DNA of 64,000 bases from Serinibacter salmoneus (lineage in GTDB: Bacteria; Actinomycetota; Actinomycetes; Actinomycetales; Beutenbergiaceae), in contig NZ_PDJD01000001.1 of NCBI RefSeq assembly GCF_002563925.1, positions 1,680,973 to 1,744,972 on the forward strand, in the 5' to 3' direction. This document shows, piece by piece, positions 5,768 through 29,851 of this stretch. Both the position numbers and the translations under genes were made by a program. The notes under the pieces were generated by a model, which made no database searches, was not told the DNA's origin, and saw nothing but the letters and a program-made list of their open reading frames with translations. Each line of letters starts with the position of its first letter. Position 1 is the first letter of the stretch.

Positions 5768-5875
5768 AGTTCTCCTAGGCAGGTGGGTGGATTCTCGGCG
5801 CCCAGCCTACGCCAGCCGCGTGCACCGCGAGCACCTGGGGCGTGGCACCCACCGGGCCACCCCGGCGCGCCCCAC

Positions 5876-6550
5876 CTAGGCGGTGGACGGGACGCCGGCG
5901 GCCGCCACACCCCCGGGATCCTCACCCTGCGCCGGGGTCCCTGCGGGTGCGAGGCCGAGCGGGCCGTCCTCGCGCGCCTCGTCCTCGCGCGGTCCCTCCG
6001 GATCGTCGCCGACCAGGGCGTCCCCCGGCCGTTCCTCCAGTGCGGTGACGTCCACCGTGTGATCGGGGGCCGGCTCGCTGGGCCCGGTGGTGATGCCCTG
6101 GCTCATGCCGCCCCATCCGTCCGTGGTGGGGCGCTGCGCGTGCGTGGCCCCGGACGGTGTGGCATCGCCAGGTGCGCCGTCCGCGCGTGTGCCGCGGTCG
6201 AAGGTCACGACGCCGTAGGCCGCGATGTCGATGGCGACGGCCTCCGCGTGGATGGCGGTGCCGTGGTGCGCCACGCCGTCGCGATCGACGTAGCTGTCGT
6301 CGACGAGCCGGCCCCGCACCAGGAGCGGGTAACCGGCACGCACGCTCTGCGCGACCCGTGCGGCCAGGTGGCGGTAGGCGCGCACCGTGAACCAGAGCGT
6401 CTCGGCGTCCTCCCAGGAGCCGTCCTCGCCGCGGCGGGATCGGGTGCACGCCAGCCGGAACCGGGTCCAGGCGCCGTGGTCGTTCGTCCGAGCCAGTTGT
6501 GGGGTGGTCCCGGCGATGCCACGCACCGTCAGGGTCGTCTCGTTGCTCAT
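5876..6550 (-). CDS. ssb: Single-stranded DNA-binding protein, atypical C-terminus
   Basis: A 224-residue protein with an N-terminal OB-fold (roughly residues 1-110: TTLTVRGIAG, WTRFRLACTRSRR, ETLWFTVRAYRHLAARVAQSVRAGYPLLVRGRL in pieces) typical of bacterial SSB, which coats ssDNA as tetramers. ATG at 6550 is chosen because GGAGGAG sits just upstream; an upstream in-frame GTG lacks such a site. The C-terminal half is acidic and Pro/Gly rich but ends in GVPSTA, without the acidic DDDIPF-like tip that recruits repair and replication proteins. It is therefore probably an accessory SSB rather than the replicative one. It lies directly between a GTPase pair and ettA, in the same direction. Confidence 0.88.
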   Translation of the reverse strand: MSNETTLTVRGIAGTTPQLARTNDHGAWTRFRLACTRSRRGEDGSWEDAETLWFTVRAYRHLAARVAQSVRAGYPLLVRGRLVDDSYVDRDGVAHHGTAIHAEAVAIDIAAYGVVTFDRGTRADGAPGDATPSGATHAQRPTTDGWGGMSQGITTGPSEPAPDHTVDVTALEERPGDALVGDDPEGPREDEAREDGPLGLAPAGTPAQGEDPGGVAAAGVPSTA

Positions 6551-6711
6551 CGGCTTCTCCTCCGTGGTCGGCAGCCGGACGCGCTCCGGCACCACCACGG
6601 TGGATCACTCGGGCCCAGCGCCGTGGGCCGGGTGTGCACAACAGCCCGCAGGCTCGCGAACGCTCGCCTGGGGACAGCCGGGAACCGCGCGGCTTCGCCG
6701 ATCGCGCGCCC

Positions 6712-8085
6712 TCAGACCGAACGCACCTGTGCCAGCCGCTCGTGGGCCGATGTCAGCCGCGCCCGGACCGCGCGGGAGGGACCGAGAATGTCCAGCACCA
6801 CGTCCTGCAGCCGTTGCGTGACATCCGCCGCGTACTGGGCGCGCACCCGGTCCGCCTCCGCTTCCAGGCTCGCTCGCCGCATCTTCCGGAAGGCGCCCGG
6901 GGTCCGCACCGGTGGCGCCGGGACCGAGCGAACGGCAGCCATCGCACGCTCCCCGATCGTCTCGGCCGAGGGCAGGGCGTCACCGACGCCACGGTGCCAC
7001 TGCGCAGGAAGGCCTCGGCACTCCGCCGCCACCCATCCCTGGCGCAAGGCCTCGAGTCGCGCGGGCGTCGGCTCGCGCAACTCCACGGTCACCGATCCCT
7101 CGCCCCTCACGGCCGCGGCGTAGGAATCCGCGGCCGACCGGGCACCGGTCATGTCCCACAGCCGTTGCACCGCGTCGCCACCGCTCTGGCCGTGACCCGG
7201 CGGCGGGCCGAGGGCATCCTCGAGGGCACGGGCCACGCCGTCGAGCTCGTCGCGGACCGCGGTGCGATTCACGCTGGCTCGCTGAGCCCCCGCCACCAGC
7301 GCGCCGCGCAGTTCCTGCACGCCCACCCCGGAGGTGGCCGAGGCAGGAAGGATGCCGACCTCGTCCAGACCGTCCGCCACCAGGAGTTCGCGCACATCGG
7401 CCAGCACCTGTTCCGTGCCCTGCGGTGTGAGGGTGTCGACCTGATTGAGCACCACGAGCATGCCGTCCTGGCGCCCCGACAGCGCGCGCAGATAGTCCGC
7501 GTGCAGCCGGTGATCGGCGTACTTCTGCGGGTCCAGGACCCACACGAGCAGGTCCACGAACGGGACCAGCTTGTTCACCAGGTCACGGTGTTCCAGTTCG
7601 ACCGAGTCGTGGTCCGGCACGTCCAACAGGATGACCCCGGCCAGCTCCCGCGGATCCGGACCTTCCAGCGCCGTCTCCCCCCGCACCCGCGCAGCGGGCG
7701 CCACCCCGAGGTGATCGAGGAACGACGTCGCATCCGAACCCCACACACAGGCCGAGGGGCGCGAGGTGGTGGGCCGGCGCACGCCGACCTCTGCGACATC
7801 CAGCGCCGTCACCGCGTTGAAGAGCGAGGACTTACCCGACCCGGTGCCACCCACGAAGGCGACCACGGTGTGGTTCAGTCCCATCGCCAGGCGCTGCTCC
7901 ACGGCGCCGAGGTGCTCCCGTGCGGCGTCGCGGACCGGAGCGGGAAGCAGCGCGCCCAGGTCGTCCACGAGTCGCGCCAGGATCTCCAGGCGCCCTTCCT
8001 CACGGACCTGCACCTCGCTGACCGAATCTGCGGAGCCCGCCATGGCTCGTGCCGCCCGGCGCGATCCGGCGATGGGTGCGCTCAC
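6712..8085 (-). CDS. Dynamin-like GTPase, soluble partner B1
   Basis: A 457-residue paralogue of the GTPase at 361-2010: G1 GGTGSGKSS (near residue 82), G2 RPTTS, G3 DVPDHDS, and G4 NQVD. Unlike the paralogue it shows no hydrophobic segment long enough for a transmembrane helix; the C-terminal part is helical and Arg/Ala rich, so it is probably soluble or peripheral. The GTG start at 8085 overlaps the stop of the upstream GTPase (GTGA), so the pair is translationally coupled. It ends about 160 bases before ssb. Family knowledge suggests GTP-driven assembly with its partner on membranes or another scaffold; the target is unknown. Confidence 0.85.
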   Translation of the reverse strand: MSAPIAGSRRAARAMAGSADSVSEVQVREEGRLEILARLVDDLGALLPAPVRDAAREHLGAVEQRLAMGLNHTVVAFVGGTGSGKSSLFNAVTALDVAEVGVRRPTTSRPSACVWGSDATSFLDHLGVAPAARVRGETALEGPDPRELAGVILLDVPDHDSVELEHRDLVNKLVPFVDLLVWVLDPQKYADHRLHADYLRALSGRQDGMLVVLNQVDTLTPQGTEQVLADVRELLVADGLDEVGILPASATSGVGVQELRGALVAGAQRASVNRTAVRDELDGVARALEDALGPPPGHGQSGGDAVQRLWDMTGARSAADSYAAAVRGEGSVTVELREPTPARLEALRQGWVAAECRGLPAQWHRGVGDALPSAETIGERAMAAVRSVPAPPVRTPGAFRKMRRASLEAEADRVRAQYAADVTQRLQDVVLDILGPSRAVRARLTSAHERLAQVRSV

Positions 8086-9716
8086 TGTGCCTCCTGTGCC
8101 AATTGCTGAAGTTCGCCGGCTCGGACCCGTAGCGCGACCGCGTGCTCCGGCGCGAGCGTCCCGGTCAGGACGGCCGTGGCGTCCCGGACCTCCCCGGCGA
8201 GGACCTCCTGTGCGCGCGCGAGGAGTTCATCCAGGACCGCCTCGATCAGGCCGTCGGTCTCGGGCCACAGTCGCGCCACCGCTGCCTGCGCTCCGGCCGA
8301 CCCGGCGGCCGCCAGCGCCAGGAGCGCCTCGGCGTCGGACGCCGTGACCAGGTCCGGGTGCGAGGCCGGACCGATCGACTGGCTCGCCTGGGCGAGCGCC
8401 GCCATCCAGGCCTGCCACGCGCGGGCCACCCGGTCACTGCGGGGGGTGTCGGCATCCGCTGCCTCCCGGGTCGCCGCGAGCGCGGCGCCTGCTGCGTCAT
8501 GATCGCGCCACGCGGTCCGCAGGCTCGAGTCGGCGCGAGCCGCGGCGTGGCCGACCACGTCCGCGAACGAGCCGTGCACGAGGTCGAGCAGCGCGCCCAG
8601 GGTCTGCGAGCGTGCGGGGCCCTGCTTGAGTGCACGGCGTCGCGCGAAGAACCCGGTGACCTCGTGCCCGAGCGGCTCCAGGACACCCCCCGAACTGGCG
8701 GCGGCGGTCCAGCGCGAGGTCACCGCTCCCTCGACCAGTCCGCCGGAGCGAAGCACCTCGGCGAGATCGGCGGCGACACCACGCACGGGCTCGTGTGCGA
8801 GCTCAGCGAGTTCACCGGCGGAATCGACCTGGCGCACGAGCGCGTCCACCAGCTCTCGCACGTCGCCGCGCAATGGCTCCCAGACTCCGCGCAGTGTCCG
8901 CGCCACGATCTCGCGTGAGGTGGCACGCGAGCCGAGAAGCCGCAGCCAGGTGGCGAGATCCTGCACCAGGCCCGGCTCGAGCCGGCCCGTCACGGGCCCG
9001 GCATCCGGCACGAGGAACAGCGGTGCGCTGGAGAAACCGCTCGACTGCAGCCGGGTGAGGAGGTCGTGGCGCACGGTGTCCCGCGCAGCCGGGGTGACAC
9101 GGTCCAGGACCACACCCACCGTGATGCCTCGGCGTCGGACGTCGTCGAGGACCTCCCACGGCAGGGCATCGCCGTAGCGGTTCGCCGTGGTCACGAACAG
9201 CCAGACGTCCGCCGCTTCCACGAGTTCCAGGCCGAGGCGCCGGTTCTCGGCGTCCACGGAATCCAGGTCGGGAGCATCGAGCAACGCGATCCCGGCTGGC
9301 ATCCCGGGCGCCACCGCGAGGCGGCACGTCGTAGCGAGCGGATGCTGCGCCATGAGGGCCTCATCGTCGGGGTGCACCACGAGCACCGGTTCCCGGGTGG
9401 TCGGTCGAAGCACACCCGCCGGGGAGACCTCCTCACCGGCGATCGAGTTCACCAGAGTCGACTTCCCGGCACCGGTCGGCCCCCCGACCACCACGACGGC
9501 GGGCAGCGCGGCCGAGACCAGCCGCGGCTCCAGGTGGCTACCGAGTTGCACCAGGACCCTCTCGCGGAGCTCCCGGGCGCGCTCCGCACCGTCCAGTTCC
9601 AGGGGGAAGGACACACTCTCGAGCTCGGCGCGCAGTGAGCGCACGGCATCCAGCGCCGGGCCACTGGAACGGCCGGGCGTCTCGCGGCCGCGCGCAGGAG
9701 GGAAATCGGTGGTCAC
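8082..9716 (-). CDS. Dynamin-like GTPase, partner A1 with degenerate G4
   Basis: A 544-residue paralogue of the A2 protein at 2007-4007: G1 GGPTGAGKST (near residue 80), G2 RPTTREPV, G3 DAPDLDSV. The G4 position reads LDRVT, so even the Asp that normally contacts guanine is replaced by Thr. The region aligned with the hydrophobic stretch of A2 is only weakly hydrophobic (EALLALAAAGSAGAQAAV), and the basic amphipathic tail is missing. It starts with GTG at 9716 and is the first gene of the minus-strand run A1-B1-ssb-ettA-A2-B2. The divergent glutamate dehydrogenase gene lies 177 bases away. Confidence 0.83.
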   Translation of the reverse strand: MTTDFPPARGRETPGRSSGPALDAVRSLRAELESVSFPLELDGAERARELRERVLVQLGSHLEPRLVSAALPAVVVVGGPTGAGKSTLVNSIAGEEVSPAGVLRPTTREPVLVVHPDDEALMAQHPLATTCRLAVAPGMPAGIALLDAPDLDSVDAENRRLGLELVEAADVWLFVTTANRYGDALPWEVLDDVRRRGITVGVVLDRVTPAARDTVRHDLLTRLQSSGFSSAPLFLVPDAGPVTGRLEPGLVQDLATWLRLLGSRATSREIVARTLRGVWEPLRGDVRELVDALVRQVDSAGELAELAHEPVRGVAADLAEVLRSGGLVEGAVTSRWTAAASSGGVLEPLGHEVTGFFARRRALKQGPARSQTLGALLDLVHGSFADVVGHAAARADSSLRTAWRDHDAAGAALAATREAADADTPRSDRVARAWQAWMAALAQASQSIGPASHPDLVTASDAEALLALAAAGSAGAQAAVARLWPETDGLIEAVLDELLARAQEVLAGEVRDATAVLTGTLAPEHAVALRVRAGELQQLAQEAQ

Positions 9717-21172: not shown

Positions 21173-22126
21173 TCAGCGCGGCGCGGTCACGCGCTCGTGC
21201 GCTTCATCTGCCTCGGGCGCCGGGACTGGCGAACCCGGCTCCTCGGCGCCCGCGCGCGTGACACCGCCGTCACCGCCGGCGCGCCCCCGGTCAGCACCGC
21301 CCTCGTCCGCGCCACCACGCACGCCGACTCCCGCGGCCACCGCCGACGGCGAGGAGAACCACCCCGAGGCCACGAGGTACCCCAGGCCCACCACCACCGC
21401 GCCGCCCACCAGGTTCCCGGTGCCGACGAACAGCATGTTGCGCCCGAACTCGCCCCACGTGGTGAGTTCCTCCCCGGAGAACAGACCCAGGGAGAACGTG
21501 GTCATGTTCGCCACCACGTGCTCGAAGCCGCTGGAGATGAACGCGAAGATCGCCCAGAAGATCACGATCGCCTTGCCGGCCTCGCTGCGCAGCCGGTTCG
21601 CTCCCCAGATCGCCAGGCACACCAGCACGTTGCACAGCACGCCGCGCAGGAACAGTTCACCCGCACCCTCCCCCGCCTTCGCGGCGAGCATGTCCGCCAC
21701 CATGCCCCCCGCCGCGGCGTTGGAGTGCAGCACGCCGGAGTGCACCACCGCCCAGCCGAAGGCCATCGAGCCGAGCAGGTTCCCCAGGAAGCAGAAGACC
21801 AGCGTGCCCAAGGCCGCGAGCGCACCGATCCGGCGCGTCACGGCGCCCTGGGTGAGGATCATCATGGCGCTGGTGACCAACTCGCCCCCGCAGAACACCA
21901 CCAGGGTGAGAGCCACGCTGAACACCGCCCCGGAGACGAGCTTCGCCGCCGGATCGCCGTCCGCGAGGAAGGGCCCGGCGGTGGAGACCATGAGGACCAC
22001 CCCCACCCCGATGAACATCCCCGCGAGCATCGCGGACACGAGGTAGCGCAGCGGCCTGTGGGTGCCGGCCACCTTGTGGCGGGCCTGCTCGAGCTGGACA
22101 TCGACGGTCGCGGGGAGGGTGAGCAC
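21173..22126 (-). CDS. Formate/nitrite transporter (FNT) channel
   Basis: A 317-residue membrane protein of the FocA/NirC family with six transmembrane helices in the first 255 residues. Conserved pore features are visible: FCGGELVTSAMM in the first half-helix repeat and FEHVVANMTTFSLG, which carries the central pore histidine of the family. FNT channels move formate, nitrite or hydrosulfide as pentamers. The last 60 residues are hydrophilic, Gly/Ala/Glu rich and probably disordered, longer than usual. The GTG at 22126 is preceded by GGGAGG. Formate export would fit anaerobic metabolism together with nrdD, but no pyruvate formate-lyase or nitrite reductase is nearby to settle the substrate. 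Confidence 0.9.
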   Translation of the reverse strand: MLTLPATVDVQLEQARHKVAGTHRPLRYLVSAMLAGMFIGVGVVLMVSTAGPFLADGDPAAKLVSGAVFSVALTLVVFCGGELVTSAMMILTQGAVTRRIGALAALGTLVFCFLGNLLGSMAFGWAVVHSGVLHSNAAAGGMVADMLAAKAGEGAGELFLRGVLCNVLVCLAIWGANRLRSEAGKAIVIFWAIFAFISSGFEHVVANMTTFSLGLFSGEELTTWGEFGRNMLFVGTGNLVGGAVVVGLGYLVASGWFSSPSAVAAGVGVRGGADEGGADRGRAGGDGGVTRAGAEEPGSPVPAPEADEAHERVTAPR

Positions 22127-22295
22127 CCCACGATCCTCCCGAGGGTGGGCCCGCGATTCGCGGGGAGAAGGTCCCGACCCGCGCGTGGCGCGGCTCACGC
22201 CCCCGGTATCGCCCGGGCCCACCTGCCGTCCTGTGCGGTGAGACGGCAGCGTTTGGCAGCCTGCGCCGTCGTGCCCGCGTGGCACCCTTGTGCCC

Positions 22296-22829
22296 ATGAC
22301 CTGGACCCGTTCCCTCGCGCCCGCCCTGCTCGCTCTGCCGCTGCTCACCGCGTGCAGCGGAGCCGACTCCGACGGCGACGCCGACTCGACGGACTCCGCC
22401 ACCTCCTCCGACATCGCGACAGCGGACCCCGCCGAGTGCAGCGGGGTCGCCCTCGTGGTCGACACCGGCGACATGCCCGACACGGGCGTCGCGGGCACCT
22501 GGTGCATCGAGGCGGACGCCGCGATCGCCGCCACCGAGGTGCTCGCGCAGGCGGGCGTCGAGACGGAGGGCACCCAGGAGTTCGGCGACGCCGTGGTCTG
22601 CCGGGTCAACGGCGTCCCGGCCGAGGACACCACCCTGCTCGCCGACGACGGCAGCGAGATCGTGGAGACCTGCGAGGGCATGCCCTCGGCTGATGCGTAC
22701 TGGTCGCTGTGGCTGCAGACGGATGGCGCATGGGAGTACGCCCCGGAGGGTGTGGACACCCTGCAGGTCGAGCCCGGTTCCGCCCTCGGCCTGCTGTTCG
22801 TGCTGAACGGGCAGCCCGAGAGCCTCTAG
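22296..22829 (+). CDS. DUF4430-like (transcobalamin-like) lipoprotein
   Basis: A 177-residue predicted lipoprotein: short basic start, hydrophobic core and lipobox LLTAC near residues 14-18, then an acidic Asp/Ser tether. Two Cys pairs may form disulfides outside the cell. The C-terminal part (YWSLWLQTDGAWEYAPEGVD, then VEPGSALGLLFV) follows the YW...W.Y...G....V..G pattern of the DUF4430 beta-grasp domain found in transcobalamin-like proteins. It is followed three bases later by the ECF transporter gene, so it may act as a surface ligand receptor for that importer. The domain call is by eye and should be seen as probable. The start could also be the GTG at 22290. Confidence 0.65.
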   Translation: MTWTRSLAPALLALPLLTACSGADSDGDADSTDSATSSDIATADPAECSGVALVVDTGDMPDTGVAGTWCIEADAAIAATEVLAQAGVETEGTQEFGDAVVCRVNGVPAEDTTLLADDGSEIVETCEGMPSADAYWSLWLQTDGAWEYAPEGVDTLQVEPGSALGLLFVLNGQPESL

Positions 22830-22832
22830 CGA

Positions 22833-24779
22833 GTGATCCGGTTCCGCCCCGCACCGCTGCTGGCCGCCGCACTGGCGGCCGTGGCCTTCGTGCTGCTGCG
22901 GGTGGTCTACCGGGGAATCTTCGCGGGGCTCGACGGCGAGGGGCCGCTCCTGCTGTCCCTCCCGCAGGTGCGGCTGCCCTCACCGGTGGACCACGTGGTG
23001 CTGCTGGGCGACGTGACGCTCGACGGCGTGACGGCGGCAGCAACCTCGGCGCTCCCGATCGCCGGGCTGATCCTCGCGTTCGGCGCGGTCGCCGCCGTAG
23101 TGGACGTGCCGGCGGTGTGCGCCCGCCTCAGCGGGCGTGGACCCTTCGGCGGGGTGGCCCAGGCCCTCGTGATCGCGTGGGCCACGGCACCCGCGCTCGC
23201 GCACAGCGTGCGGGAGGTCTCCCGCGCCCGCCGGCTGCGTGGTGAGGGCGGGCCGGCGGCCCTGCTCGTGCCGGTGCTGGAACGCACCGTGGAACGGGCG
23301 GTGACGCTCGGCACCTCCATGCACCTGCGCGGTTTCGGGGGGCGCGCCGTCGCCGCCGCTGACACGGCGGCGCCCGCCCTGTCGCTGCACGCCGACCTGG
23401 CCTACGACCACTGGCACCTGCGGGCCGACCTCGACCTGCCGCCGGGTGGGTTCGCCGTGCTGACGGGCCCGACCGGCTCCGGGAAGACCACGCTGCTGCG
23501 CGCGGCCGCCGGCCTCGCCCCGAGCGATGGGAGCCTCGCCACCGAGGCCGAGTCCGCCTCCGTGGTGCGGATCGCGGGCGTGCCGGCCGAGACCGCCACC
23601 GGCCTGATCGGGTACGTGGCGCAGGAGCCCCGGTTGTCCTTCGCGACCGAGACGGTGGCGGAGGAGATCGGCCTGGCCTCACGCACCCTGGGCGCGGGCG
23701 ACCTCGATCGCCGCGTGGCAAGGATCGCGCAGGCCCTCGCCATCACCGCCCTGCTCCCCCGCCGCACCGCGAGCCTCTCCGCCGGGCAGGCCCAGCTCGT
23801 CGCGATCGCCGCGGCGAGCGCACACGGTCCGGCACTGCTGCTCGCCGATGAGCCGCTGGCGGACCTGGACGCCGCGAGCGCCGAGCGCGTCGCGGCGGCG
23901 CTGCGCGCGGTGGCCGCCTCCGGCACCGCGGTCCTCGTGGCCGAGCACCGGCCCGGGCCCCTGGTCCGCCCGGGCGTGCACATGCTGGCCATCGCGGACG
24001 GCTCCGTGCACGCGGACGACGGCACTGACGACGGCACGGACGACGGCACGGACGACGGCACGGACGACGGCGCGGACGCTTCGGCTCGGTGCGCCGCCGC
24101 GCCGAGCGTGGACCCCGCCGCGACCCCGACCGCGAACTCGGGCGAGCCCGACGCCCCGATCCTCGTGGCGCCCGCGCTCGAGGTGACCCGCGGCACCGTG
24201 AGCGTGATCCGCGGCGGCCGAATCGCCGTCGGGCAGGAGATAGTGGCGCTCACCGGCGCGGTCGGGTCAGGCAAGACCAGCCTGCTGCTGGCCCTCGCCC
24301 TCGGGGAGGTGCCGGTGAGCATCGAGGGTGAGCCGGCGCCGTCGGGCCGGGATCGCCCCCGCGCGATCGCCCTGGTGCCCGATGCGTGCGAGGACCTGTT
24401 CTTCCACCTCACCGTGGCGGCGGAGTGCGCGCGGGCCGACCGGCGGTGGCGGCGAACGCCCGGGGAGACGTTGCAGCGCCTGACGGCCTGGCTGGGCGCC
24501 GATGTGGCGCAGCGGCACCCCCGGGACCTCTCGCACGGGCAGCGCCGGGTGCTGGCACTCGCGCTCCAGCTCGCGGCGCGCCCCCGCGTGCTGCTGATCG
24601 ACGAACCGGGGCGCGGGCTGGATCCGCACACGAGCACGGCGATGCGGCGGGCGCTGCGGGAAATGGCGGAGTCGGGCACCGGGGTGCTCCTGGCCGGCCA
24701 CGATCCCGTGTTCGTCGCGCTGGCCGACCGGGTGATCGGGATCCGGGACGGGTCGCTGCGCGCGGGGGTGCCGGCGTGA
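22833..24779 (+). CDS. ECF transporter energising module: EcfT fused to two EcfA ATPases
   Basis: A 648-residue fusion. Residues 1-180 hold two or more hydrophobic helices and the two Ala-Arg-Gly coupling helices of EcfT (SRARRLRGE and SMHLRGFG). Two ABC ATPases follow: Walker A TGPTGSGKTT (near residue 212), signature LSAGQAQLVAI, Walker B LLLADEP; and Walker A TGAVGSGKTS (near residue 472), signature LSHGQRRVLAL, Walker B LLIDEPGRGLD. They are joined by an acidic linker containing a GTDD repeat. ECF importers carry vitamins and metals using a separate S component. Separate T, A and A' subunits are usual; this protein holds all three. Start is GTG at 22833, and the stop overlaps the S component start (GTGA). 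Confidence 0.85.
   Translation: MIRFRPAPLLAAALAAVAFVLLRVVYRGIFAGLDGEGPLLLSLPQVRLPSPVDHVVLLGDVTLDGVTAAATSALPIAGLILAFGAVAAVVDVPAVCARLSGRGPFGGVAQALVIAWATAPALAHSVREVSRARRLRGEGGPAALLVPVLERTVERAVTLGTSMHLRGFGGRAVAAADTAAPALSLHADLAYDHWHLRADLDLPPGGFAVLTGPTGSGKTTLLRAAAGLAPSDGSLATEAESASVVRIAGVPAETATGLIGYVAQEPRLSFATETVAEEIGLASRTLGAGDLDRRVARIAQALAITALLPRRTASLSAGQAQLVAIAAASAHGPALLLADEPLADLDAASAERVAAALRAVAASGTAVLVAEHRPGPLVRPGVHMLAIADGSVHADDGTDDGTDDGTDDGTDDGADASARCAAAPSVDPAATPTANSGEPDAPILVAPALEVTRGTVSVIRGGRIAVGQEIVALTGAVGSGKTSLLLALALGEVPVSIEGEPAPSGRDRPRAIALVPDACEDLFFHLTVAAECARADRRWRRTPGETLQRLTAWLGADVAQRHPRDLSHGQRRVLALALQLAARPRVLLIDEPGRGLDPHTSTAMRRALREMAESGTGVLLAGHDPVFVALADRVIGIRDGSLRAGVPA
24013..24078 (+). 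repeat. 12-bp in-frame tandem repeat encoding GTDD units
   Basis: About five copies of a 12-base unit (GACGACGGCACG) within the fused ECF gene encode an acidic DDGT run between the two ATPase domains. Copy number is likely to vary between strains by slippage without breaking the frame. Confidence 0.8.
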
Positions 24780-25570
24780 GCGCACCGAGCGCGCCGAGCG
24801 CACCGGCCGCGCCGTCGCAGGGCGCCAGCGCCCGCCGATGGCCGGGTGTGCTGGCGCTCGCGACGACGAACCTGATCGCGGCACTCGCGTTCGCGTGGCC
24901 GCTACTGGCGCCGGCCGCCCCCTCCCAGGCCCGCGCCGCCGTCCCCTACGCCGCCCTGGCGCTGGTGCCGCTGCTGGTGCTGCTCGCCGTGGTGATGCTG
25001 GACGGTTCTCTGCGCTCGGCCCGGACCCTGGCCATGCTCGGCACGCTGACCGCGGTGGGGGCGGCGGTGCGGATCGCGGGCACGGGCGCCGGCGGGGTGG
25101 AGCTGGTGTTCATCGTGCTGATCCTCGCCGGGCGGGCCTATGGTGCGCGCTTCGCCTACCTGCTGGGGGTGCTGGTGATCGCGGTGTCCTCGCTGGTCAG
25201 CGGGTTCGGGCCGTGGACACCGTTCCAGATGATGGCGTGCGCATGGGTGGGGGCTGGCGCGGGGCTCCTGCCCGCTCGCCTGCGCGGACGCGCGGAGATC
25301 GCGGCGCTGGCGGCCTACGGCGCGCTCGCCTCCTTCGGCTTCGGGCTGGCGATGAACCTGTGGTTCTGGCCGTTCGCGATCGGGTCCGGGGCGAGCATCA
25401 GCTACGACGGCGATGCGGGCCTGGGCACGAACCTCGCCTCGTTCCTGGCGTACTCCCTGGTCACCTCGACCCTCACCTGGGACCTCGTGCGCGCGGTGAC
25501 CACCGTGGTCGGGGTGTGTCTCGCCGGACCGGCGGTGCTGGCGGCCCTGCGACGGGCGCGCCTGGGCTGA
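24776..25570 (+). CDS. ECF transporter S component, probably cobalamin-specific
   Basis: A 264-residue hydrophobic protein with about six to seven transmembrane helices, built like larger ECF S components (FGPWTPFQMMACAWVGAGAG in the middle, NLWFWPFAIGSG and a luminal ISYDGDAGLGTNLASFLAYS loop near the end). S components bind the vitamin and pair with EcfT-EcfA. The GTG at 24776 overlaps the stop of the fused energising protein as GTGA. Cobalamin is proposed because a transcobalamin-like lipoprotein is encoded at the head of the operon and cobalamin-dependent MetH is the convergent neighbour; the sequence alone does not prove the substrate. The N-terminal 20 residues are Ala/Pro/Ser repeats. 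Confidence 0.8.
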   Translation: MSAPSAPSAPAAPSQGASARRWPGVLALATTNLIAALAFAWPLLAPAAPSQARAAVPYAALALVPLLVLLAVVMLDGSLRSARTLAMLGTLTAVGAAVRIAGTGAGGVELVFIVLILAGRAYGARFAYLLGVLVIAVSSLVSGFGPWTPFQMMACAWVGAGAGLLPARLRGRAEIAALAAYGALASFGFGLAMNLWFWPFAIGSGASISYDGDAGLGTNLASFLAYSLVTSTLTWDLVRAVTTVVGVCLAGPAVLAALRRARLG

Positions 25571-25655: not shown

Positions 25656-28600
25656 TCAGACGCTGAAGTACTTGGCCTCCGGGTGGTGGAACACGAACGC
25701 GTCCGTGGACTGCTCGGGGTGCAGCTGGAGCTCCTCGCTCAACTGCACGCCCATCCGCTCCGGGCGCAGCAGTTCCACCACCTTGCGGCGGTCGGCCATG
25801 TCCGGGCAGGCGGGATAGCCCAGGGAGAACCGCGCCCCGCGGTACTCCAGCTTGAACAGGCCCTCCTTCTGCGCCGGCTCCTCGTCGCCGAAGCCGAGGT
25901 CGGCGCGGATGCGCGCGTGCCAGTACTCCGCGAGCGCCTCGGTCAGCTGCATCACGAGGCCGTTGAGTTCGAGGTAGTCGCGATAGGAGTCCTGCGCGAA
26001 CATCTGCGCCGTCACCTCATCCACGTGGGCCCCGGCCGTGACGAGCTGGATGGGCAGCACGTCCACCCGCCCCTGCGCCTCCACCGCCTCCCGGGAGCGC
26101 ACGAAGTCCGCCAGGCACAGGTGCCGGTCGCGGCGCTGACGCGGGAAGGTGAAGCGCAGCCGCTCGGCGTCGAGCCCGAGCCCGCCGCCGCTGCCGCCGT
26201 CGGGCGCGAGCAGCCCGGGTGTGCCGAGCACGCCGGTGGGGTCGTCGCCGTGGTGGAGCACCACCACCTCGCTCCCCGCGCTGTACACGGGGAAGTACCC
26301 GTAGGCCACCGAGGCATCCAGCATCCCCTCGGCGAGGATCCGGTCCAGCCAGTACCGCAGCCGGGGCTTCCCCTCGGTGGCGACCAGCTCCTCGTAGGAG
26401 GCGCCGCCCTCCCCGCGCCCGGGCTTGAGGCCCCACTGCCCCATGAAGGTGGCGCGCTCGTCCAGGAAGGCGGAGAACTCCGCCAGTGGCACCCCGCGCA
26501 CGATCCGGGTGCCCCAGAACGGGGGCGCGGGTACGGCGTTGTCGGTGGCCACGTCGGAGCGCTGCGGCATCGCCTCGGGTTCGGTGACGCTCAGGGTGCT
26601 GCGGGCGGTGCGGCGCTTGCGCAGCGCGGGCAGGCCCACGGAGTCCGCATCCGCGCCGCGGGCGATCGCCACGAGCGGCTCCATGAGGGCGAGGCCCTCG
26701 AAGGCGTCCCGGGCGTAGCGCACCACGCCGGGGAACTCCCCCTGCAGGTCGTCCTCCACGAAGGGGCGGGTCAGGGCGGCGCCGCCCAGCAGCACGGGCC
26801 AGCGCTCGGCCAGGCCGCGGGCGGTGAGCTCGGCGAGGTTCTCCTTCATCACCATGGTCGACTTGACCAGCAGGCCGGACATCCCGATCACGTCCGCCCG
26901 GTGCTCCTCGGCGGCGGCGATGATGTCCGCGATGGGCTGCTTGATGCCGAGGTTGACCACGGTGTAGCCGTTGTTGGTCAGGATGATGTCCACGAGGTTC
27001 TTGCCGATGTCGTGCACGTCGCCGCGCACGGTCGCCAGCACGATGGTGCCCTTACCGGCCTCGTCGGTGCGCTCCATGTGGGGTTCCAGGAGTGCGACGG
27101 CGCTCTTCATCACCTCGGCGCTGGTGAGCACGAACGGCAGCTGCATCTCCCCGGCGCCGAACCGCTCCCCCACCACCTTCATGCCGGCCAGCAGGTGCTC
27201 GTTGACGATGTCCAGCGCCGAGAGGCCCCCGGCCATCGCCTCGGTCAGGTCGTCGGCCAGCCCCTTGGACTCGCCGTCGATGATGCGGCGCTGCAGCCGC
27301 TCCCCGACCGGCAGGGAGGCGAGCTCGGCGGCGCGGGCATCGCGCAGCGCCTGGGCGTTCACCCCCGCGAACAGGTCCAGCATCCGGGTCAACGGGTCGT
27401 CCACCAGGGTGCCATCCTCGTCGTAGCGGCGTCGGTCCCACACCAGGTCCAGCGCCGTCTCGCGCTGCTCGGGGGTGAGGGAGGCCAGCGGCACGATCTT
27501 CGCGGCGTCCACGATCGCGGAGTCCAGGCCCGCCTGCACGGCCTCGTGCAGGAACACGGAGTTCAGTACACTGCGGGCGGCCGGGTTGAGGCCGAAGGAG
27601 ACGTTGGAGACACCGAGCGTGGTGTGCACGCCGGGGAAGGCCTCGGTGACGCGCCGGATCGCCTCGATGGTCTCGATCGCGTCCCGCCGGGTCTCCTCCT
27701 GACCGGTGGCGATCGGGAAGGTGAGGCAGTCCACGATGATGTCGGAGACCTCCAGCCCCCAGGTCTGGGTGAGCTCGGTGATCAGCCGGGTGGCGATCGC
27801 GACCTTGTGCTCGGCGGTGCGGGCCTGCCCCTCCTCGTCGATGGTGAGGGCGACCACGGCCGCCCCGTGTTCGCGCACCAGCGGCATGATGCGTGCAAAC
27901 CGGGAGCCCTCGCCGTCGCCGTCCTCGTAGTTGACGGAGTTCACCACGGGCCGACCGCCGATCCGCTCCAGCCCCGCGGCGAGCACCGCCGGCTCGGTGG
28001 AGTCCACCACCAGCGGCAGGGTGGAGGCCGAGGCGAACCGGGCGACGACCTCGCTGACGTCCGCCACGCCGTCACGCCCCACGTAGTCCACGCACACGTC
28101 CAGCAGGTGGGCACCCACCCGGATCTGGTTGCGCGCGATCTGCACGCACTCCTCCCAGTTGCCCTCCAGCATCGCCTCGCGGAAGGCCTTGGAGCCGTTG
28201 GCGTTGGTGCGCTCCCCGATCGCGAGGTAGGAGGCGTCCTGGGCGAAGGGGACGTGTTGGTACAGGCTCGCCACCCCGGGCTCGGGGGTGGGGGTGCGCT
28301 CGGGCAGGGGCAGGTCCCGCACCCGCTCCACCACGGCCGCGAGGTGCTCCGGCGTGGTGCCGCAGCATCCGCCCACCAGGGAGATCCCGAACTCCTTGAC
28401 GAACTGCTCGTGCGCGCTGGCGAGCTCGGCCGGGGTCAGGGGGTACTCGGCGCCGTCCTTGCCGAGCACCGGCAGTCCGGCGTTCGGCATGCACACGATC
28501 GGCACCCGGGAGCGCTGGGAGAGCTGCCGCAGGTGCTCGCTCATCTCCGCGGGCCCGGTCGCGCAGTTCAGCCCGATGGCATCCACTCCGAGGGCCTCCA

Positions 28601-29306
28601 GGGCGGTCAGCGCGGCCGTGATCTCCGAGCCCACGAGCATGGTGCCGGTGGTCTCCACGGTGACCTCCACGAAGATGGGCAGCCGCACCCCCGCCGCCAC
28701 GATCGCGGCCTTGCAGCCGTTCACCGCGGCCTTCGTCTGCAGCAGGTCCTGGGAGGTCTCCACGAGGAACGCGTCGGCGCCGCCCTCGATCAGTCCGGTG
28801 GCGGCCTCGGCGAAGGTGTCCCGCAGTTGGGCGTAGGAGATGTGCCCGAGGCTCGGCAGCTTGGTGCCGGGACCCATCGAGCCGAGCACCCACCGCATCC
28901 GGCCGTCCTCGGCGGCCGCCGCCTCCACGCGTTCGCGCGCCAGGGCAGCGCCCGCGCGGGCCAGTTCGGTGATGCGCTCGGCGATGCCGTAGTCGGAGAG
29001 GTTGGAGTAGTTCGCGCCGAAGGTGTTCGACTCGATGCAGTCCGACCCGGCCGCGAGGAAGGAATCGTGCACGGCGGCGATGATGTCGGGCCGGGTGAGG
29101 GTGAGGATCTCGTTGCAGCCCTCCAGGTCGGCGTAGTCCGCCAGCGTCGGGTCGTGCCGCTGGATCATCGTGCCCATCGCGCCGTCGGCGACCACCACCC
29201 GGGTGGCCATCGCCGCCAGCAGCGCCCGCGAGCGCTCCGGGCGCGGGAACGGCGCGATGTCCAGCGGGTGCAGGGGCTGCGGGGGCGCGGATGCGGTGAC
29301 ACTCAC
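25656..29306 (-). CDS. metH: Cobalamin-dependent methionine synthase
   Basis: A 1216-residue protein with all four MetH modules in order. The homocysteine domain starts with VVADGAMGTMIQ and carries zinc cysteines in LNCATGP and GGCCGTTPEH. The folate domain follows (IGERTNANGSKAF, about residue 360). The cobalamin cap and binding domains come next, with the cobalt-ligating histidine in GDVHDIGKN (about residue 761). The C-terminal reactivation domain binds S-adenosylmethionine (RFSLGYPACPD). It methylates homocysteine using 5-methyltetrahydrofolate. GTG at 29306 is chosen because TAGACT lies seven bases upstream and no ribosome binding site exists, a leaderless arrangement. It converges on the predicted cobalamin importer genes. 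Confidence 0.97.
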   Translation of the reverse strand: MSVTASAPPQPLHPLDIAPFPRPERSRALLAAMATRVVVADGAMGTMIQRHDPTLADYADLEGCNEILTLTRPDIIAAVHDSFLAAGSDCIESNTFGANYSNLSDYGIAERITELARAGAALARERVEAAAAEDGRMRWVLGSMGPGTKLPSLGHISYAQLRDTFAEAATGLIEGGADAFLVETSQDLLQTKAAVNGCKAAIVAAGVRLPIFVEVTVETTGTMLVGSEITAALTALEALGVDAIGLNCATGPAEMSEHLRQLSQRSRVPIVCMPNAGLPVLGKDGAEYPLTPAELASAHEQFVKEFGISLVGGCCGTTPEHLAAVVERVRDLPLPERTPTPEPGVASLYQHVPFAQDASYLAIGERTNANGSKAFREAMLEGNWEECVQIARNQIRVGAHLLDVCVDYVGRDGVADVSEVVARFASASTLPLVVDSTEPAVLAAGLERIGGRPVVNSVNYEDGDGEGSRFARIMPLVREHGAAVVALTIDEEGQARTAEHKVAIATRLITELTQTWGLEVSDIIVDCLTFPIATGQEETRRDAIETIEAIRRVTEAFPGVHTTLGVSNVSFGLNPAARSVLNSVFLHEAVQAGLDSAIVDAAKIVPLASLTPEQRETALDLVWDRRRYDEDGTLVDDPLTRMLDLFAGVNAQALRDARAAELASLPVGERLQRRIIDGESKGLADDLTEAMAGGLSALDIVNEHLLAGMKVVGERFGAGEMQLPFVLTSAEVMKSAVALLEPHMERTDEAGKGTIVLATVRGDVHDIGKNLVDIILTNNGYTVVNLGIKQPIADIIAAAEEHRADVIGMSGLLVKSTMVMKENLAELTARGLAERWPVLLGGAALTRPFVEDDLQGEFPGVVRYARDAFEGLALMEPLVAIARGADADSVGLPALRKRRTARSTLSVTEPEAMPQRSDVATDNAVPAPPFWGTRIVRGVPLAEFSAFLDERATFMGQWGLKPGRGEGGASYEELVATEGKPRLRYWLDRILAEGMLDASVAYGYFPVYSAGSEVVVLHHGDDPTGVLGTPGLLAPDGGSGGGLGLDAERLRFTFPRQRRDRHLCLADFVRSREAVEAQGRVDVLPIQLVTAGAHVDEVTAQMFAQDSYRDYLELNGLVMQLTEALAEYWHARIRADLGFGDEEPAQKEGLFKLEYRGARFSLGYPACPDMADRRKVVELLRPERMGVQLSEELQLHPEQSTDAFVFHHPEAKYFSV

Positions 29307-29313
29307 GCAGGCG

Positions 29314-29319
29314 AGTCTA
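29314..29319 (-). promoter_or_regulatory. -10 hexamer of leaderless metH promoter
   Basis: Minus-strand TAGACT, then seven bases, then the metH GTG. With no leader there is no room for a cobalamin or SAM riboswitch. Confidence 0.55.
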
Positions 29320-29335
29320 GGGTCGGGGCGCCCGG

Positions 29336-29851
29336 TCACCTCGTTGGGCGCCCGGGGGTCTCAAGGTAGGTCCGCAGCCCGCGCTCCCCCGCGCTCATCA
29401 CGTGGGCGTGACTGGCCGCGAGTGCCCAGGGCGCAAGCCGCTCCCCCACGCGCAGGGCCGGACGCACGGTCCGCACCCGCCAATCGATGCGGACCAGGCA
29501 GGACGGCGCAGCCGCCCCAGCAACGCCGGTGGGCTCGATGCGGGCACGGGCCACGCCCCGCAGGTCCCCGACGGCGCGCAGCACCACCGCGGCTGGTTCC
29601 CCCGGGCGCTGCGGTGGCTGGGCCTCGCTCACCTCCAGCCCGAGCCGCAGCCGGTAGCCGGGTGCCCGGAAGTCCAGCGCGGAGCGGGCACCGATCCAGC
29701 CGTGCTCGGTGGTGCGGATCGGGACGACGCGCAGCCCCGGCCACCAGTGGGGCCAGGACGGGGTGTCGGTGAGCACCTCCCAGGCGCGGGTGGTGTCCAC
29801 CGGCAGCGGCCAGGCGCTGGTGAAATGCCACATCCGTCCAGGAGGGCTCAT
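29336..29851 (-). CDS. SRPBCC-fold (polyketide cyclase/START-like) protein
   Basis: A 171-residue protein of the SRPBCC superfamily, small alpha/beta grip proteins with a hydrophobic ligand cavity. The opening FTSAWPLPVDTTRAWEVLTD and the W..WWPGL segment match the family start (helix after the first strand), and a long C-terminal helix ends the fold. Ligand and role are unknown; relatives include polyketide cyclases and lipid or coenzyme carriers. ATG at 29851 is the natural start; TACCGT lies eight bases upstream (29860-29865), a borderline leaderless arrangement. It lies 29 bases before the metH start in the same direction, but metH seems to have its own promoter. Confidence 0.75.
   Translation of the reverse strand: MSPPGRMWHFTSAWPLPVDTTRAWEVLTDTPSWPHWWPGLRVVPIRTTEHGWIGARSALDFRAPGYRLRLGLEVSEAQPPQRPGEPAAVVLRAVGDLRGVARARIEPTGVAGAAAPSCLVRIDWRVRTVRPALRVGERLAPWALAASHAHVMSAGERGLRTYLETPGRPTR

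Follow-up and report, generated by a model that had tools for sequence, protein, structure and literature searches.

A dedicated ECF-type cobalamin importer predicted in Serinibacter salmoneus, with a transcobalamin-beta-like lipoprotein and a partly fused module from an actinobacterial fusion series

A three-gene operon of Serinibacter salmoneus was analysed within a stretch of 64,000 nucleotides (contig NZ_PDJD01000001.1, positions 1,680,973 to 1,744,972 of the forward strand; referred to as the window, with positions counted from its first letter). The operon encodes a lipoprotein, a fusion protein with an EcfT part and two EcfA ATPases, and an S component. It very probably represents a dedicated group I importer of the energy-coupling factor (ECF) type for cobalamin (vitamin B12), with a transcobalamin-beta-like lipoprotein as receptor. 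The three-gene layout given in the initial annotation was reproduced with exact coordinates. Three bases (cga) separate the stop codon of the lipoprotein gene from the GTG start of the fusion gene, and the fusion stop codon overlaps the start codon of the S component gene as GTGA (GTG at 24776). The features of the locus are the following.

22296..22829, plus strand: lipoprotein gene, 177 aa, from ATG at 22296 to TAG at 22829
22833..24779, plus strand: EcfT-EcfA-EcfA fusion gene, 648 aa, GTG start at 22833, TGA stop
22833..23372, plus strand: EcfT part of the fusion, residues ~1-180, a reduced T domain with coupling helices
23373..24050, plus strand: EcfA-1, first ATPase of the fusion, PF00005 at residues 198-343
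24150..24776, plus strand: EcfA-2, second ATPase of the fusion, start estimated, ATPase motifs
24776..25570, plus strand: S component gene, 264 aa, GTG start, TGA stop
25656..29339, minus strand: metH, convergent, presumed consumer of cobalamin and outside the transporter proper

The fusion protein matched PF00005 in two stretches (E 2.4e-35), and similarity to CbiQ was found at residues 48-170 (E 2e-4, 21.5 bits, under the 25-bit cut-off); the annotation of EcfT helices and both ATPases in one protein held in this form. Walker A, signature, Walker B and switch histidine were intact in both ATPases. EcfA-1 carries Walker A at residue 212, LSAGQ at 315, LLLADEP and the H-switch AEHR; the corresponding motifs of EcfA-2 are Walker A at 475, LSHGQ at 566, LLIDEP and AGHD. 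A comparison of the window with three fused relatives revealed a Q-loop glutamine in EcfA-1 as opposed to LVPDA or LVPEN in EcfA-2 (~24363-24400), and judged from these residues the two ATP sites of the fusion may differ. The linker between the two ATPases contains an in-frame 12-base repeat encoding DGTD units (window ~24000-24080). Three hydrophobic segments were counted in the T part and six in the S component. The T part comprises about 180 residues in the window and the other fused forms, compared with a median of 381 in 27 unfused T proteins; six unfused T proteins were examined for hydrophobic segments and possessed 7-9.

The S component of the window matched PF12822 weakly (E 0.0056, below the cut-off), and the same family matched 13 of the 21 aligned S homologues (best E 1.8e-11). 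In the comparison with CbrT, the S profile (A1) yielded no match to a PDB chain at E<=10. S-protein homologues were present in 43 of the 149 genomes of the order, and the relatives keep the gene order lipoprotein or beta protein, T, ATPase pair, S; the three-gene arrangement is therefore not due to chance. Together with the PF12822 matches, this conserved order upholds the reading of the third gene as an S component. The overlap of its start with the fusion stop, again with the conserved order, speaks for the EcfT-EcfA-EcfA module being dedicated to it, as had been proposed.

The lipoprotein consists of a lipobox (LLTAC, Cys20), a low-complexity spacer and a domain at residues ~48-172. A DUF4430-like C-terminus had been annotated initially. 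PF14478 gave no match in the lipoprotein (E up to 10), in 34 aligned lipoproteins or in the whole genome, so DUF4430 identity by sequence was rejected and structure comparison was used instead. The AlphaFold2 model, built from the 34-sequence alignment, reached a predicted local distance difference test score (pLDDT) of 83 overall and mostly 85-98 in the domain blocks. The top 19 Foldseek entries were transcobalamin, intrinsic factor, haptocorrin and 3u7z (best E 6.2e-3, none at 0.001). A second aligner (VIA) gave Z 9.6-10.3 over 92-98 residues for its 15 best entries, all of transcobalamin type or 3u7z, and the next unrelated chain fell to Z 6.8. These comparisons support a predicted beta-domain fold of the transcobalamin/intrinsic factor type (Z ~10) in place of the DUF4430 sequence match. 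The beta domains of human and bovine transcobalamin, intrinsic factor and haptocorrin (5np4, 2bb6, 3kq4, 4kki) share the predicted fold at Z ~10 with 14-19% identity over the aligned part; the window protein differs from them in being bacterial, membrane-anchored and devoid of an alpha domain. Among profile searches, NF040672 (SCO2322_fam) matched the lipoprotein with 28.9 bits (E 1.3e-6), far under its 85-bit cut-off, and 14 of the 34 aligned lipoproteins at E<=0.01. A search of solved structures with the lipoprotein profile returned nothing useful, and a literature search on SCO2321-SCO2325 found nothing relevant.

By its modelled fold, the lipoprotein of the window is a beta domain alone, that is, half a transcobalamin, and the annotation of a transcobalamin-like surface lipoprotein stands for this half only. 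The beta protein of most unfused relatives carries a C-terminal hydrophobic stretch with an Arg-rich tail and lacks an N-terminal lipobox. A gene of the squalene-cyclase-like family NF053823 (SCO2321 family), the alpha-toroid partner, lies near the operon in 22 of the 28 unfused named loci defined below and in none of the 46 fused ones. As read from their sequences, the beta protein and the squalene-cyclase-like protein of the unfused relatives together are a predicted split transcobalamin. Stand-alone beta domains have been described within the transcobalamin-like SLBB family (PMC1796856). A receptor with a beta domain alone would be plausible, though weaker than the two-domain type, as crystals of the human transcobalamin beta domain by itself with cyanocobalamin have been obtained (PMC5599065).

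Relatives were sampled in two ways. From the survey genomes, 40 neighbourhoods were mapped; the gene maps were drawn with a codon-position heuristic that mis-called some frames, and conclusions rest on tblastn and open-frame checks. In addition, contigs were scanned with the 21-sequence S alignment (A1), which gave at least 555 candidate stretches. The best 80 were taken as named loci and range over Cryobacterium, Agromyces, Microbacterium, Arthrobacter, Streptomyces, Micromonospora, Nocardioides, Amycolatopsis and others. One survey genome (G125) and one named locus (L081) appear to come from the same genome.

Evidence on the substrate was obtained from cobalamin riboswitches, which were searched with RF00174 across all 43 carrier genomes. 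A same-strand riboswitch was located 3.3-6.0 kb upstream of the S gene, a distance equal to the operon length, at 23 loci in 22 of the 43 genomes, at a chance expectation of ~0.07. Nine of these scored above the Rfam gathering score and 14 were weaker (E<=0.001 per genome). Among the 21 loci without an upstream riboswitch were 10 of fused type and several at contig ends. Direct locus scans placed a riboswitch ahead of the operon in L040, L045, L059 and L068. For the named unfused loci, a riboswitch preceded the operon in 6 of 16 (L117, L118, L121, L132, L139, L148; one as the sister family AdoCbl), and the other 10 lacked a same-strand upstream match reaching the gathering score. All 26 named unfused genomes contained a cobalamin riboswitch somewhere. 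One genome harbours two unfused operon copies (G094:C1 near 853610 and 2051229), each with an upstream riboswitch signal under the gathering score.

The convergent neighbour of the operon was confirmed as cobalamin-dependent metH: its product scored 1343.9 bits with TIGR02082 (cut-off 1010.85) and contains PF02607, PF02310 and PF02965, including the B12-binding and activation domains. Of the 46 fused named loci, 40 have a convergent metH downstream, 27 of them at a distance of at most 700 bp; none of the 28 unfused named loci does. The proposal that the operon imports cobalamin for MetH is thus favoured by the fused loci; the neighbour is missing in the unfused relatives, and the link is kept here as an inference. 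CbiC is common to both cobalamin pathways. It was not found in the window genome, in line with the expected absence of de novo synthesis; over all carriers tested, 27 of 31 lacked it. The MetE N-terminal domain was not found in the window genome either, nor was ABC_membrane_2, which is taken here to be the family of BacA-type transporters. Cobalamin as substrate, as initially annotated, accordingly agrees with the riboswitches over orthologous operons, the transcobalamin beta fold, the lack of CbiC and the convergence of metH.

The relatives differ in the degree of fusion. Among the 80 named loci, 33 encode T, both ATPases and S in one frame, 13 a T-ATPase-ATPase fusion with a separate S component, and 28 the T protein, the ATPase pair and the S component apart; these counts omit L095, in which the frames are broken between T and A and were read as frameshifted, and five truncated loci (L075, L104, L123, L131, L145). 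The one-frame loci belong to Microbacterium, Arthrobacter and relatives. In the survey, single frames were found in G083, G054, G021, G024 and G005, and T-ATPase-ATPase fusions with a separate S component in the window, G133, G119 and G125. Single-frame examples are L032-L036 and, among the 33 named loci, L098:5814-8669, L094:5931-8786 and L080:5910-8828. G139, considered as a single chain on the basis of a short locus, was rejected because its counterpart L128 shows the fusion with a separate S component.

In 32 single-chain genes, the stretch from the second ATPase to the S domain measured 41-252 residues (median 48), and a simple pattern test detected an internal start with a ribosome-site-like pattern before the S domain in one of them. 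S components have both the N and the C terminus in the cytosol (PMC12075633), so topology would allow a tether from ATPase to S. In a quick tree built from 100 S domains, with long branches flagged, the unfused forms were all confined to the same side of a branch with a support of 96 in the Shimodaira-Hasegawa-like approximate likelihood ratio test (SH-aLRT); three changes suffice to explain the three architecture states on it. The single-chain protein of Arthrobacter locus L098 (951 aa) was modelled with 68 further alignment rows as a chain of T, two ATPases and S at pLDDT 86.2 and a predicted template modelling score (pTM) of 0.85, with the linker 642-667 at low confidence. Its T part was modelled with helices at 5-30, 62-88, 91-100, 105-135 and 141-164, comprising two of membrane length and coupling helices.

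Read from the sequences, the loci would form a series from separate T, ATPase pair and S with toroid and riboswitch, through the T-ATPase-ATPase fusion of the window, to a single frame with S included. In the fused loci, riboswitch and toroid are gone and metH is usually adjacent. The unfused survey locus L065, where convergent metH, toroid and beta protein are all present, looks like an intermediate between unfused and fused forms. The unusual fused three-part module noted initially is real; it has to be corrected in that it is one step in a series that ends in the single chain. The evidence leans, though modestly, towards a naturally occurring ECF importer for B12 that is complete in one chain in Microbacterium, Arthrobacter and relatives, with T, both ATPases and S as one polypeptide joined through a linker of ~48 residues, and with the window as an intermediate form. 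If functional, such an importer would transport with an S component that never departs permanently and with a T domain reduced to the coupling helices and about two membrane helices. Within family f1 of the survey, to which the window itself belongs, fused loci without riboswitch (G000, G133, G119) were observed as against unfused loci with riboswitch (G063, G047, G105, G091, G031, G013, G077, G147). The presence of both operon forms in one family suggests horizontal transfer or differential retention.

The mechanism inferred for binding, hand-over, transport and service to MetH would be as follows. The lipoprotein, anchored at the outer face of the membrane, would capture cobalamin with its solitary transcobalamin-type beta domain and pass it to the membrane-embedded S component. 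Through the T part, ATP binding and hydrolysis in the two ATPase domains would drive the S component to reorient and to release cobalamin inside the cell for MetH. Fusion of T and both ATPases may fix the ratios of the subunits, and the single-chain relatives would tether S too.

Several findings weigh against this assignment. Cobalamin riboswitches were found in 0 of 10 fused-type survey genomes and 0 of 22 named fused genomes; the window, also at a relaxed threshold, and the window genome had none. The strongest substrate evidence therefore comes from orthologues that are ~40-52% identical in the S protein. The alpha-toroid half of transcobalamin was not found in the window genome with NF053823, a model that matched only 6 of 31 genomes searched and that a very divergent form could escape. 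Fold searches with the L098 model returned lists filled with ATPases, so the S and T folds stay predictions. The MetE N-terminal domain was present in 7 of 10 fused-type genomes; MetH is therefore not the only methionine synthase across the clade, and most of these genomes can do without B12 for methionine. FecCD permeases gave 7 matches in the window genome, 6 of them above the cut-off, which makes a second B12 route possible.

Such a route might even be the main one, with the operon as an auxiliary B12 importer. A single-permease FecCD system with lipoprotein and ATPase genes lies at G000:C1 ~926.8-929.8 kb in the window genome (L158, G000:C1:921000-935000, ~5829-8820). It adjoins genes read by eye as cofC/cofD-like (F420) and a link to B12 was not seen there, whereas the operon of the window encodes a receptor of B12 type and lies next to metH; an auxiliary role is accordingly a minor possibility. 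Judged from the adjoining MetH, which uses a complete cobamide, import of another corrinoid (cobinamide or other incomplete cobamides) in place of cobalamin itself appears unlikely. In its favour, the riboswitch linkage is compatible with any corrinoid, cobinamide is a substrate of ECF-CbrT besides cobalamin (PMC5997447), and it is also bound by the human beta domain in isolation (PMC5599065). A substrate unrelated to B12, such as a methionine or folate precursor, with B12 suggested by metH adjacency alone, would agree with the lack of riboswitches in the clade of the window and with the weak matches of the S component to riboflavin and generic S families. It is very improbable in view of the transcobalamin beta fold, the riboswitches over orthologous operons and the alpha-toroid partner in relatives; an S-adenosylmethionine (SAM) or folate element was not found in the window. 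For the cobalamin importer, none of the outcomes which the initial annotation had named as speaking against it (a lipoprotein unlike DUF4430, an S component for another vitamin, the company of a different pathway in relatives) was encountered in substance: the DUF4430 sequence similarity is missing, but the fold is there.

Scavenging of B12 by transcobalamin-like proteins and CbiO/CbiQ operons was predicted by Burroughs et al. 2007 (PMC1796856). Their SLBB systems likewise combine a secreted transcobalamin-beta-like domain with a CbiO-like ATPase and a CbiQ-like protein in bacteria lacking B12 synthesis. The clade described there (PMC1796856) comprises low-GC Gram-positives, planctomycetes and euryarchaea, while the present one is a divergent actinobacterial version missed by PF14478; unlike those systems, the fused clade is beta-only, lipid-anchored and fused from T and both ATPases. 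ECF-CbrT of Lactobacillus delbrueckii is also an ECF cobalamin importer with a membrane S component, but belongs to group II with a shared module, whereas the window encodes a dedicated fused module and an extra receptor (PMC5997447, PMC12075633). The group I thiamine transporter YkoEDC resembles the operon in its dedicated S component, T protein, double ATPase in one protein (YkoD) and riboswitch-controlled operon; it differs in its substrate thiamine and in a T protein separate from the ATPases, and a lipoprotein receptor is not mentioned in the part of the source consulted (PMC5037267).

The literature search, in which some sources were accessible in part and the 2009 ECF paper lay outside the coverage, recognised no single-chain ECF transporter; the fusions described were ATPase pairs only. 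Within these limits, the new points are the actinobacterial form with the riboswitches that support it, the lipoprotein with a beta domain alone, and the progressive fusion into a single chain. The identification of B12 transporters in numerous genomes was called an open problem by a large comparative study, in which CbrUVT occurs as a name (PMC6593275). The present assignment concerns a system that is widespread in actinobacteria, with at least 555 candidate stretches, and that has a receptor whose predicted fold is related to half of human transcobalamin. An actinobacterial ECF importer for B12 would be expected by specialists; a complete single-chain version would surprise, and a natural chain of this kind makes the question whether transport needs expulsion of the S component directly testable.

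Upstream of the operon, a gene labelled by eye as formate/nitrite-channel-like is located on the minus strand (21173-22160), divergent from the lipoprotein gene.

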